DNA from: Candidatus Jettenia sp.
GTDB lineage: Bacteria; Planctomycetota; Brocadiia; Brocadiales; Brocadiaceae
DNA: 64,000 bases
Reading direction: 5' to 3'
Assembly: GCA_021650895.1 (NCBI GenBank)
Contig: CP091278.1
Span: 2,137,659-2,201,658 of the forward strand
Under the pieces are notes generated by a model, which saw only the letters and a list, made by a program, of their open reading frames with translations, was not told the DNA's origin and ran no database searches. Shown piece by piece: positions 3,104 to 61,538 of this stretch; within the stretch, counting starts at the first letter, position 1, and every line of letters begins with the position of its first letter. The translations under genes and the position numbers were made by a program.

Positions 3104-6100
3104 TTACGCTTTTTCCACCTTTACCAATTCTCCGCCCAGGTATTTTTTCATGAAATCATTCTCGTTGCCAGCGGTATACCCTGTCTTTGCCGGATCCCAC
3201 AATCCCTTACCTCCAATGCCACCATCCTCCGCCTTGGTGATCTTTACCAAGGTCTCTTTTGGCACTGTGTTGATACCATGATTGTCTGCCTCAAAACCAA
3301 AAACAAACTTCATACCAATCTTTGCTTTGTGGAACAGACTATCCAATTGATGCATGGGCATGGACCAATCTCTGGTAATACTCTGTTGTGATCCATAACG
3401 GAAGCTTGACTGATACCCGGTGCCTGCCGATAGCGCCCTTCCATCAGGTCTTGTCTCATGGGCCTTCACCGACCGCTCTGTTGAAATGCACGCAGAGTGC
3501 TTCATCATGGTCACTCCATACGGATATGCCGGATTGTACTTACACCGTAACATCAGACGCGCTATCTTATAGAACGGGTCGCTTGGCTTCCACCCCTCAT
3601 ACGGCCTGTCCGCAGGGTTGGCATCTACATAAACATAATCACCATCATTGATACCTAAATCCTTCGCCGCATCAGGATGCATATGGATTTGATGTTCTCC
3701 CACGCCTGGCATTCTCTTGTCCATCCTGTAGGGGTCACCAAAGTTGTTATTCCAGATAAAGTTCCAGTCCGTTACTGCCCACTGGGAGTGTACCGTATGG
3801 CGGGATTTCGGTGTTACACAATAGAACTTATATCCCTTCTCCCACAAGAAGTTCTTCGTTTTCTTTGTCTCAGCCCATGACTTCTTGATGTTCCTTACCG
3901 TTCTCTCATCCCAATGTTCTGCATTCTCCGGTATTCCATAATCATCCGGACGGATATACGGATTGGTGCTGACGATGACATTCGGAAGATACTGGGTTGC
4001 CTCCGGTCCTTCACGGTGTACGATAAAGTTCTCTCCGTACTCAATAATCTCCGATTCATCATTGTACCCCTGTAACCTTCCTGTCGGTGTATAGAAAGGA
4101 AGGCTCTCATGTACCTGTTCCCAGAATGGATGTCTCGGATAGGTACGGTAGAGCAATAAGGCAACTCCTGGTTCGCCATATTTCCCATTAATGATGTCAA
4201 CAAAACTGTACCCCTTTGTCGTCGTACTGCCATCCAATAATCTCTGGATATAGACCTCTGGTCTTCCCTCAAGGGCAAACTTCCAAACATCATGGAATCT
4301 CATATCTCTGAGGAGTTCTCCAAGCTTGGCTCCCATACCCGCAAGGATCATCACATCATCCTTAGAGTCGTTCACCGGTTTTATGCCACCCTTCCATATC
4401 TGAATGAAGGGATTGGAGCATGAGGTGGTAATCTCATGGGTCTCAAACTCTGCCCAGGAGTTCGCCGGAAATGCAAAATCGGCATATTCAATAGAACCGG
4501 TCATCTCTATATCGTTCGACATGATTTGTTCGATATTGGGATTGACATTCTTCAGCATCTGGTACACATGCTTGGCATTGTTTACCAGGTTTACGTTCGT
4601 AAACCACATGATCTTCGTTGGTGTCGGCATGTGGGTTTTACCCGTAAAGCATTTCCGTCCATACTTTGGGGTATTCACAATTAACGGCCTGTCATTATGA
4701 TTCCAGTACGCCACTTCTTCATCATAGGCACGTCCCTTTACCTTGAGTTCCGTTGCAGGTGCATCGGGATCAAGGTTCGGGTTAAATACATCCTCTGCTA
4801 CCCATCCATAGAATCCGGGACCACTCCACTTTGATGCCTGGAAATTGCCCGCCTTATAGTTACCTGCCCAGGTATGAGAGCCTGAACCAGGATAACCCAC
4901 ATTCCCCGTTAACATCAGAGGTAAATAGGTCGACCTATTCATAAGTGTTGCGTGGAACCAGTGATTGATACCCTCACCGTAATGGATTGCTACCGGTTTA
5001 ATGGTTGCTATATCATGTGCCAGCCTTACGATTAACTCCTTTGGTGAATTCGTCATTTCAACGACACTGTCAATATCGTAATCTTTCAGATGTATTTTAT
5101 ACATCTCGAAGAGCGGCATGACCTCAATTTCCTTGCCATCTACCGTTTTCACCTTGAATACTCCATCGAGAGCCGGGTCAATACCTTTTGCAATAAGCTT
5201 ATCACCAACATCATCACGGGTAATCGCTTTTGGGCTATTTGTCTTTGCGTCCCATACCACAAAGTCTCCGATAATCTCCCTCTGGTCATCATGTAAGCCG
5301 TGAATCTTATAGCTTGCCCCATGTGACATATCCTCTAGTTTATAATCCGGGAAGATATCTTTCGCCTGCAGCCTCTTCAGGGTATCTGTTCGAACGAGTA
5401 AGGGGAAATCGGTAAACTTCTTCACATAATCTGCATCATACAGCTTCTCATCCATGAGGATCTTGGTTATCCCCAGGAACAATGCCGTATCGGTATTACA
5501 CTTGATCGGTATCCAGTAATCTGCCTTTTGAGCAGATGGGCTATATTCGGGGGTAATAACAACCAGCTTCCCACCTCTCTCGAAAACCTGTGTTAACCAG
5601 TGTGCCTCAGGCATCTTATTCTCAATAAGGTTCTTTCCGGTCTGGATTACCAACTTTGAGAACCGTACATCGTTCATGTCTACATCCGATGTCTGCAATC
5701 CATGAGAGAACGGATGTCCAGGGGCCTGATCACCATGCCAGGTATAGTTTGACCAGTTTCTACCACCCAATGCCTTGTCAGGACCAACACCTCTGTTGTG
5801 ACTATCGACCAGGGCAAGGGAATTGTTAAACCGGTACATCCCGTATTTACCAATAACACCCAAGAGACCCATACCACCACGTCCCTTAAAGGTTCGTGTG
5901 CCGGCACCCTTCATCGCATCAACCATCTCTTTAGGATAGCCTTGATCCAGGAGTTTCCGTGCGCCTTCTTCTCCACTGTACTTCTTGGTAATGTGGATAA
6001 TACCCTTTGCAGCATAGGTCCAGGCATCATCCCAGGAGGCCTTTAAGAGTTCATCCTGACCTCTGGCATCAAACATATACTTTGATTTATTTTCCGGTGT

Positions 6101-58246: not shown

Positions 58247-58933
58247 TCAATCACTGGTAAAGTGAAATTTCGTTGCAAAACCGCTTCTCCCATCATAATT
58301 CCACTCCTGGTTATCCTCATTAAACCGATGATTAACGGCCTTTCCCATATCTAATGTCAAATCAAATTCTTTTGCCCATAGTGTAAAGTTCTTATTGACA
58401 ATTTGGGTAGGTTTTCCTGGATCTCCCTGCCCATGCAACAACTCAATATCTAATGATAATCTATTGGCTACTTCAGCCCTCTTGCGCCATTCAGAAGATT
58501 CTACCTGGATAGGTAGATATCTTACGGTAATCCTTTCAGGTGGAACTTTGCCAAAACGAAACACATGATTTTTAAAAATATCCAATAATGCATTTTTCTG
58601 AATAGCGGAAGCAGTCTTATCATTTATATAAAAAACAATCCAATTTTTATCCGGTGTTGCTGTCAGATCTGTTATTCCTATTACCGTCTGACCATCTAAA
58701 TTATGCTGCCCGTAATTCCCTTTTAGAACACGAAAAACACCGGTAATCTTACATGTTTTATTATGGGTTGGCTCACTTCCGAAGAGACAAGGACAACCCG
58801 GATTGCAGGTACATCCCTCAAAATACTCACCTTCAATTGACCAGGACGGACCAGCCCAAAGGGTGCTGGAGATACTACAAAGTAGAATAGCAAAGATTAC
58901 TCCAGATAGTAAATATCGCAATCTTCTCATCAT
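58247..58933 (-). CDS. Exported DUF1326 protein
   Basis: A 228-residue protein with a signal peptide (YLLSGVIFAILLCSISSTLW, then AGP) and a domain matching DUF1326: GEYFEGCTCNPGCPCLF carries the characteristic cysteine cluster. The role of this domain is not established; the cysteines suggest metal binding. The start at 58933 (or the next codon, 58930) is supported by AGGAGAGG; a much longer frame from 59107 has no ribosome site and adds an unnatural extension. Confidence 0.75.
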   Translation of the reverse strand: MMRRLRYLLSGVIFAILLCSISSTLWAGPSWSIEGEYFEGCTCNPGCPCLFGSEPTHNKTCKITGVFRVLKGNYGQHNLDGQTVIGITDLTATPDKNWIVFYINDKTASAIQKNALLDIFKNHVFRFGKVPPERITVRYLPIQVESSEWRKRAEVANRLSLDIELLHGQGDPGKPTQIVNKNFTLWAKEFDLTLDMGKAVNHRFNEDNQEWNYDGRSGFATKFHFTSD

Positions 58934-59084
58934 TCCTCTCCTTCTAAAAGTAACTGTCGAGTTAAACCACTTAATTACAATTCTGATGAAATATATACCT
59001 CTAAAACTTCCCTTGTAAGACGAGGACATACTTTTATCAATGGAGATAAAAATGTGGATTCGTCTCAGCTTAACCACTCTCATC

Positions 59085-59840
59085 TCATTTTCGAATAAGG
59101 GGAACAAACCGTACAGGGATAATGGATTTCTTTATAATATTCTCAGAAGCATCTTTGGTAATCAACATCAGATCCTGCACTGCATACATACCACCCACAG
59201 GAATAACCATACAACCGCTAGGCTTAAGCTGATCAATAAGTGGTTGAGGAATATGCTCTGCCGCTGCTGTAACGATAATGGCATCAAAGGGGGCATGTTC
59301 AGGCCATCCCTTATAACCATCACCAATCATACCCTTCACATTCGTATAACCCAGCGCTTTTAAATTTTTTATAGCCTCTTTGCCGAGTTTTTCTACAACC
59401 TCTATTGTATATACCTGTTTTACCAATCTCGAGAGAACAGAGGCCTGGTAGCCAGAACCTGTGCCTACTTCCAACACAATGTCATCTTTGTCTACCTTTA
59501 ATAATTCTGTCATAAAGGCAACTACATATGGTTGAGAAATAGTTTGCCCAAATCCAATAGGTACCGGTCGGTCTGAATAGCTAAGGGCACGATTTTCTTC
59601 CGGAATAAAGAAGTGACGAGGTATACACTTCATTGCATCGAGTATTTCTTTATCCTTTATGCCTCGGTAGGCAAGCTGTTCTTCCACCATCTGTTCCCGT
59701 TGCCGTTTAAAGACACCCTCGTCCGTTACAGAGCTTTTAATCCCCAGAGCAGAAACCGCGCTATTAAACGCAGATAAGCTAATAAAGGAGATCGTACTCA
59801 CTATGTATGAGGTAATAAATATAAGAAAACTTGTCTTCAT
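59085..59840 (-). CDS. pcm: Exported protein-L-isoaspartate O-methyltransferase
   Basis: Repairs isoaspartyl residues by SAM-dependent methylation. The 251-residue protein has an N-terminal hydrophobic leader (FLIFITSYIVSTISFISLSA) before the domain; the usual enzyme is about 210 residues and cytoplasmic. The signature motifs are RHFFIPEENRALSYSD, PIGFGQTISQPYVVAFM and SAM-binding VLEVGTGSGYQASVL. The leader suggests action in the periplasm or anammoxosome lumen, although SAM supply there is unexplained. Confidence 0.88.
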   Translation of the reverse strand: MKTSFLIFITSYIVSTISFISLSAFNSAVSALGIKSSVTDEGVFKRQREQMVEEQLAYRGIKDKEILDAMKCIPRHFFIPEENRALSYSDRPVPIGFGQTISQPYVVAFMTELLKVDKDDIVLEVGTGSGYQASVLSRLVKQVYTIEVVEKLGKEAIKNLKALGYTNVKGMIGDGYKGWPEHAPFDAIIVTAAAEHIPQPLIDQLKPSGCMVIPVGGMYAVQDLMLITKDASENIIKKSIIPVRFVPLIRK

Positions 59841-60013: not shown

Positions 60014-60043
60014 TGTAGTGGCAAGGTGCGCCTTGCCACTACA
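60014..60043. repeat. REP-like palindrome
   Basis: Perfect 13-bp arms (60014-60026 and 60031-60043), TGTAGTGGCAAGG with a TGCG loop. Its GTAG...CTAC ends match the elements at 43606 and 58147. Confidence 0.7.
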
Positions 60044-60179: not shown

Positions 60180-60277
60180 GGGTGGCACTGACAAACTTTG
60201 TTTGTCAGCGTTTTGTAATCCATAATCCATGTATGTAGGTAAATAAGCACGGACAAACACGTTTGCCCGTGCCACCC
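60180..60277. repeat. Composite REP-like element
   Basis: Outer 9-bp arms GGGTGGCAC (60180-60188) and GTGCCACCC (60269-60277) enclose two hairpins: CTGACAAA/TTTGTCAG (60188-60208) and GCACGGACAAAC/GTTTGCCCGTGC (60247-60272, one mismatch). Confidence 0.7.
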
Positions 60278-60441: not shown

Positions 60442-61500
60442 CTAGGGTATAACTATAATGGAAACATCTTCTCTTGTACGTACTTCACCAATAACATCGG
60501 CAGTCATAACCCCCTTCTCTTTGAGTTTTGCACAAAGTACTTCAACTTTTTCTTCCGGAAGTGAGATAAGCAGGCCGCCGGAAGTCTGGGCATCGAATAA
60601 GACATTTATCAAATCCTCACTTACGTTAGGATCTATTCTAATCGCATCTTTTAAATATTTTTTACTAAGCTTTGATACCCCCGGTATCAATCCCATCCTG
60701 ACATAGCGCTCACAACCTTCGAATATAGGCACACGACCAGCAAAGAAAGATAAGGTAACCATACTGGCTTCTGCCATCTCATGCGCATGACCCATAAGCC
60801 CAAAACCAGTAATATCCGTGCAGGCATTCACGTTTACCTCCAGCATAACTTCAGAGGATGCCCTATTCAACAAGGCCATGCTCTTCGTTACAATACTTAT
60901 ATGCTCTTCAAGAACTTTCCCGGCCTTAATAGCCGATATAATTAATCCTGTCCCTAACGGTTTTGTTAATACCAATACATCCCCTACCCTGGCACCCGCA
61001 TTCGTTACAATCTTCTTAGGATGAATAATTCCCGTAACAGATAATCCATATTTAATTTCATTATCCTGTAACGTGTGACCACCCACAATGACAGCTCCTG
61101 CCTCATTGACCTTATCCGCTCCGCCCTTAAGTATTTCTATCAAAATATCCTTATTCAGTATCTTGAGAGGATAACAAAGGATATTCATAGCCGTGAGAGG
61201 TTTGCCTCCCATAGCATAAACATCGCTTAACGCATTAGCTGCTGCTATCTGCCCGTAATCATACGGATTATTCACTACCGGTGTAAAAAAATCAAGGGTT
61301 GATACCGTAGCTATTTCCTCTGTAATCTTATAAATACCGGCATCAGCAAAGGTTTTGGGACCGACTAACAGATGTTCATTCGGATACTCCGGTAAATTAC
61401 GGAGCACATACGCCATGTCTTCAACGGGGATCTTACCAGCTCATCCACCACACGTTGCGTAATCGATCAATCGTTTTTTTCTCCGTAACAGAGGTACCAC
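60442..61500 (-). CDS. selD: Selenide, water dikinase; apparent selenoprotein with in-frame UGA
   Basis: Makes selenophosphate for selenocysteine tRNA. The frame from the ATG at 61416 covers most of the enzyme (STLDFFTPVVNNPYDYGQIA, NALSDVYAMGGKPLTAMNIL) but lacks the catalytic N-terminus. Upstream in the same frame it continues through a TGA at 61441-61443, reading DYATCGG-U-AGKIPVEDMA, where SelD proteins carry the catalytic Cys or selenocysteine followed by an essential Lys. With GTG at 61500 the product is about 352 residues, the family length. Alternatively an ATG at 61510 (MKGGGTSVTEKK) could be the start if one base of the A7 run is surplus. Co-directional with the lipoprotein gene upstream. 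Confidence 0.9.
61406..61418 (-). promoter_or_regulatory. Candidate bacterial SECIS hairpin of selD
   Basis: ACATGGCGTATGT, beginning 22 bases after the TGA, can form a 4-bp stem with a GGCGT loop. Distance and a G at the loop start fit bacterial SECIS elements, but the stem is short. Confidence 0.35.
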
Positions 61501-61538
61501 CCCCTTTCATAAAAAAGCTACAATTTGTTATATTGATT

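Follow-up and report, generated by a model that had tools for sequence, protein, structure and literature searches.

A SelD Reading Frame Interrupted by TGA

Does the in-frame TGA at 61443–61441 of the window (the whole 64,000 nt stretch of DNA analysed) encode selenocysteine (Sec), and is the gene that carries it a complete selenophosphate synthetase? The surrounding frame runs on the minus strand from an upstream in-frame TGA (61509–61507) to a stop codon at 60442–60444 and is broken only by this codon, in the context ...YATCGG-U-AGKIPVED.... The sequence-only reading had placed the TGA at the catalytic Cys/Sec position of SelD, within CGG-U-AGK, in a frame open on both sides, and had regarded the N-terminus of the gene as overlooked.

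Reading the TGA as Sec gives a complete SelD (...KKRLIDYATCGG-U-AGKIPVEDMAY...), which scores 365 bits against the curated equivalog model TIGR00476 (selD, cut-off 125) and can be aligned over its whole length with the solved SelD structures PDB 2yye and 3u0o, which we take to be the Aquifex and E. coli proteins, respectively. The Sec aligns with Cys17 of the E. coli enzyme and is followed by a lysine at +3 (U-AGK, compared with CGCK in E. coli). The aspartate motifs DFF, SDxxAMGG and TDxTGFG are kept, as TLDFF, ALSDVYAMGG and ACTDITGFG. By profile match and homologue alignments, the selD CDS occupies 60442–61491 (minus strand, recoded TGA included), with the TGA (61441–61443) at the catalytic position, so that both the placement of this codon and the openness of the frame around it were borne out.

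The order was sampled with 59 Brocadiales genomes, 33 of which have a SelD match at a threshold of 1e-60; the relatives that carry names in the collection, Candidatus Brocadia pituitae, Ca. Brocadia sapporoensis and Ca. Loosdrechtia aerotolerans, place the window in the Brocadiaceae. One match (genome G052) begins inside the gene and does not cover the Sec site. The family alignment, which had been proposed as a check, shows exactly one TGA at the site in each of the other 32 genes (32/32), at 41–97% protein identity to the SelD of the window, and a family search added two further members with the same TGA.

Most prokaryotic SelDs have Cys at this site (PMC4561486), and the TGA could be a sequencing error for TGC or TGT, or a pseudogene mutation, in an enzyme that is an ordinary Cys form or dead. 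The presence of TGA in every homologue of the order sample that covers the site excludes both, and protein conservation is strong on either side of it; the probability of such an origin is negligible. Translation might also begin after the TGA, at ATG 61416, which opens the ORF listed by a standard caller and would give a SelD without its catalytic loop. This is very improbable: that ATG comes only after the catalytic Sec and Lys, the segment KKRL...C-G-UAGK is invariant or almost so, and the upstream frame, Shine-Dalgarno sequence and NTG initiator are all conserved. The gene thus very probably (about 0.96, a figure for the SelD/Sec explanation that excludes the distal hairpin described below) encodes a selenophosphate synthetase with Sec as its catalytic residue, the UGA being decoded by the organism's own Sec machinery; we infer that Sec is actually inserted into the protein.

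Translation Start of selD

The start codon was located by comparing 24 Brocadiaceae selD genes. In all of them, the codon 16 places before the Sec codon (codon −16) is NTG (GTG in 18, CTG in 4, TTG and ATG in one each), while codons −17, −18 and −15 vary freely. It lies at a constant distance from AAGGGGGTGAT, a near-match to the perfect Shine-Dalgarno sequence AAGGAGGTGAT; in the window, the family-conserved Shine-Dalgarno sequence AAGGGGGTG is at 61498–61506 (minus strand). The initiator is therefore probably the CTG at 61491–61489, CTG being the probable form in this genus. In the second family, the selD start is ATG, one codon further in. The claim of an overlooked N-terminus stands as far as the upstream extension is concerned, given the conserved Shine-Dalgarno sequence and NTG, whereas the start proposed for it, GTG 61500, probably adds three codons too many; this GTG does not vary because it belongs to the Shine-Dalgarno sequence. 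A frameshift at the A7 run, which would lead from an ATG in another frame (61510) into that of SelD, was also considered and rejected, since relatives already have a conserved Shine-Dalgarno sequence and NTG start in the SelD frame.

Selenocysteine Machinery and Formate Dehydrogenase

The host genome (3.82 Mb, single contig) carries the adjacent genes selA (536 bits) and selB (394 bits) at C1:923710–926929, and a tRNA-Sec with anticodon UCA at C1:495853. The prediction that the organism encodes selenocysteine is thereby supported, and the absence of selA, selB and selC from the complete genome, which had been named as the observation that would count against it, is excluded. Further in-frame TGAs had been expected, for example in formate dehydrogenases, and one is indeed found at the catalytic position of a formate dehydrogenase alpha subunit (CART-U-HAPSV, C1:3552697). 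Selenouridine synthase, another possible use of selenophosphate, gave no match over the cut-off in this genome.

SelD and SelA are distributed together across the order. Both are present in 31 of the 59 genomes and both absent from 25, an agreement of 56/59 (Fisher p about 3e-13, uncorrected for phylogeny). Two of the three discordant genomes (G052 and G020) are fragmented drafts; the third, G009, consists of about 10 contigs. It is a nearly complete genome of family f2, with selA present (locus L146, G009:C8) and SelD not detected, while its relatives carry both. The Sec form of FdhA was found in 25 Brocadiaceae genomes, and occurs in SelD carriers. Relatives lacking SelD, where they have a match above threshold, carry a Cys paralogue of FdhA; one of them (G044) additionally has a Sec-type-like FdhA fragment at a contig end. 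SelD and SelA are both absent from G013, G028, G032, G038 and the genomes of family f4. With several lineages of the order devoid of SelD and SelA, the Sec trait has probably been lost or gained more than once within it.

These components suggest a route for SelD synthesis. Guided by a strong Shine-Dalgarno sequence, ribosomes would initiate at the NTG codon, which is CTG in this genus, and at codon 17 the UGA would be decoded by a complex of SelB, GTP and Sec-tRNA, aided by a SECIS stem-loop directly downstream, after which translation would go on through the ATP-binding and catalytic domains. The selenophosphate produced by SelD would be used by SelA to make Sec-tRNA-Sec, and because it feeds this synthesis, SelD would depend on its own product. 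The Sec-type formate dehydrogenase would be the other confirmed client of the Sec machinery.

Stem-Loops Downstream of the UGA Codons

In fdhA, wherever the amino acids directly after the UGA are identical, so are 100% of their codons (robust z 10.6), and the segment holds a near-invariant stem-loop, CGUCGCC-GGUCU-GGCGAUG, a textbook bacterial SECIS close to the classical E. coli loop. The corresponding segment of selD contains a candidate bacterial SECIS at 61413–61427 (minus strand), a 4 bp stem with a G in the loop that is common to both families in the alignment and matches the location of the fdhA SECIS of the same genome. The stem is weak by folding energy, and in Brocadiaceae single-sequence folding does no better than with shuffled sequences. 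Among the peaks of synonymous constraint in Brocadiaceae selD this segment ranks second, with a robust z of 3–4.5 that is barely above the maxima of ordinary neighbouring genes, where z 3–4 is reached too. A SECIS function of this stem is putative.

A Conserved Hairpin Distal to the UGA

In selD, synonymous codons are most strongly conserved about 750 nt downstream of the UGA (codons +245 to +257), within a 63 nt element inside the selD frame (60652–60714, minus strand) that was delimited by synonymous constraint and alignments. Its core, at 60672–60690 (minus strand), is a hairpin of 8 bp with a 3 nt loop, TTGATACC-GGG-GGTATCAA. Over an 8-codon window covering the hairpin, synonymous codons are 99% identical compared with 25% expected, and robust z in Brocadiaceae is 7.8 for 24 genes, 9.9 for 12 divergent genes and up to 11 with 12-codon windows, a constraint equal to that of the fdhA SECIS. 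Peaks in the control genes pcm, kbl (from four genes only) and a short upstream ORF reach 2–4. In the second family, too, constraint is highest at the hairpin (z 4.3).

All 23 Brocadiaceae genes of the initial alignment have 8/8 pairs in the core, and two added genes have the same core (25/25). The second family has CTGATGCC-GGG-TGCATCAG and variants of it, with 7–8 of 8 pairs. There, the outermost U-A pair is changed to C-G, and an A-U pair to G-C via a G-U intermediate that is found in one genus; the other changes are wobbles, and no inner pair is ever broken except the one closing the loop. These stem changes represent few independent events, differences between the two families being inherited. 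A search with a hairpin model found one element each in 31 genomes, all of them SelD carriers, and one weak match (E 0.04) in a genome without SelD. The two deep-branching SelDs of family f5 do not have the hairpin. SelDs outside the order lack it too, those of other phyla averaging 3.5/8 pairs. Comparison with Rfam gave nothing convincing in the hairpin region.

The most likely role of the distal hairpin, held with moderate confidence, is that of a cis-acting regulatory element of the selD mRNA. Conservation of the encoded residues (L-I/M-P-G-V/A-S) is partial, and in the second family random recoding gives 7/8 pairs with a 10–18% chance per gene, both of which would be compatible with a hairpin that is a chance by-product of protein and codon constraint. 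This is improbable in view of the degree of synonymous identity in Brocadiaceae (robust z about 8–11) and of the coincidence with the top peak in the second family, while neighbouring genes reach only 2–4.

A better, though still doubtful, alternative is a DNA-level site (for an operator or for recombination), or a role for the downstream gene pcm rather than for the selD mRNA. As DNA, the hairpin sequence makes a near-perfect palindrome. The gene pcm, encoding protein-L-isoaspartate O-methyltransferase (59085–59840, minus strand, in the window), comes next after selD and on its strand in 35 of the roughly 40 Brocadiales loci examined, in two families with differing upstream genes. However, the 23 nt core occurs once in the genome, the hairpin model has no convincing site outside selD in these genomes, and the hairpin is retained in genome G042, where the downstream stretch examined has no detected pcm. 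Every one-sided change seen in the inner stem preserves pairing in the sense RNA, which weakly favours an mRNA element over a DNA site.

Whether such an mRNA element is tied to selenium decoding is a guess. Through binding of SelB or in another regulatory way, it might adjust selD expression to Sec supply, or it might assist Sec insertion over a long range, the local SECIS of this bacterial gene being weak, but these are unlikely readings, and at about 750 nt from the UGA the hairpin is by position no bacterial SECIS (bSECIS), an element found directly downstream of the UGA. Several other roles were considered. Pairing of a CCCC after the UGA with the GGG loop, judged by eye, is not supported because changes in the loop and the post-UGA segment do not match (e.g., in locus L041). 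Terminator, promoter and slippery-site signals were rejected: on inspection, the hairpin has no U tract as expected of a terminator and no conserved −10 as expected of a promoter, and the A-run that might serve as a slippery site is broken in L025.

Neighbouring Genes and Repeats

Downstream of pcm in the window is a gene for a DUF1326 protein (58247–59107, minus strand), and a DUF1326-like protein is found downstream of selD in about ten relatives' loci. The selD-pcm intergenic region carries repeats at 60014–60043 and 60180–60277, a perfect 13 bp inverted repeat (TGTAGTGGCAAGG...) and an imperfect 17 bp inverted repeat (GGGTGGCACTGACAAAC...), both resembling dispersed palindromic repeats. 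Elsewhere in the window, about 4281–5707 (minus strand) belongs to a large molybdopterin oxidoreductase, whose open frame has 1159 aa and which has a paralogue at C1:763845–765266; it is possibly the alpha subunit of nitrite oxidoreductase.

Comparison with Known Systems

No direct report of selenocysteine in anammox bacteria was found in the open-access papers searched. At the sequence level, the data establish the Sec trait in this anammox-type lineage, where it is used in SelD and formate dehydrogenase, alongside sister lineages of the same order from which it is wholly absent. Genes of this kind will be truncated or split by annotation pipelines. With a conservation matching that of a SECIS, the distal hairpin stands as a concrete candidate for a new type of regulatory element for selenium metabolism.

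SelDs that are selenoproteins themselves are already known. In a published survey, selenocysteine was present in about 19% of prokaryotic SelDs, Cys forms existing elsewhere (PMC4561486), so the Brocadiales SelD adds to a known type. It shares with other Sec-containing SelDs (TIGR00476) a catalytic Sec in the position of Cys17 of E. coli, the Lys at +3, the full domain architecture, the UGA recoding near the N-terminus and the company of selA, selB and tRNA-Sec. It differs in its probable CTG initiator, in this genus, and in the Brocadiales-specific hairpin. Compared with bSECIS elements, the candidate selD stem-loop with its loop G directly follows the UGA, at the same distance as in the strong fdhA SECIS, but its stem is only 4 bp and weak, and the strongest RNA-like constraint in selD lies at a long distance from the UGA, a location for which no bSECIS elements are described.
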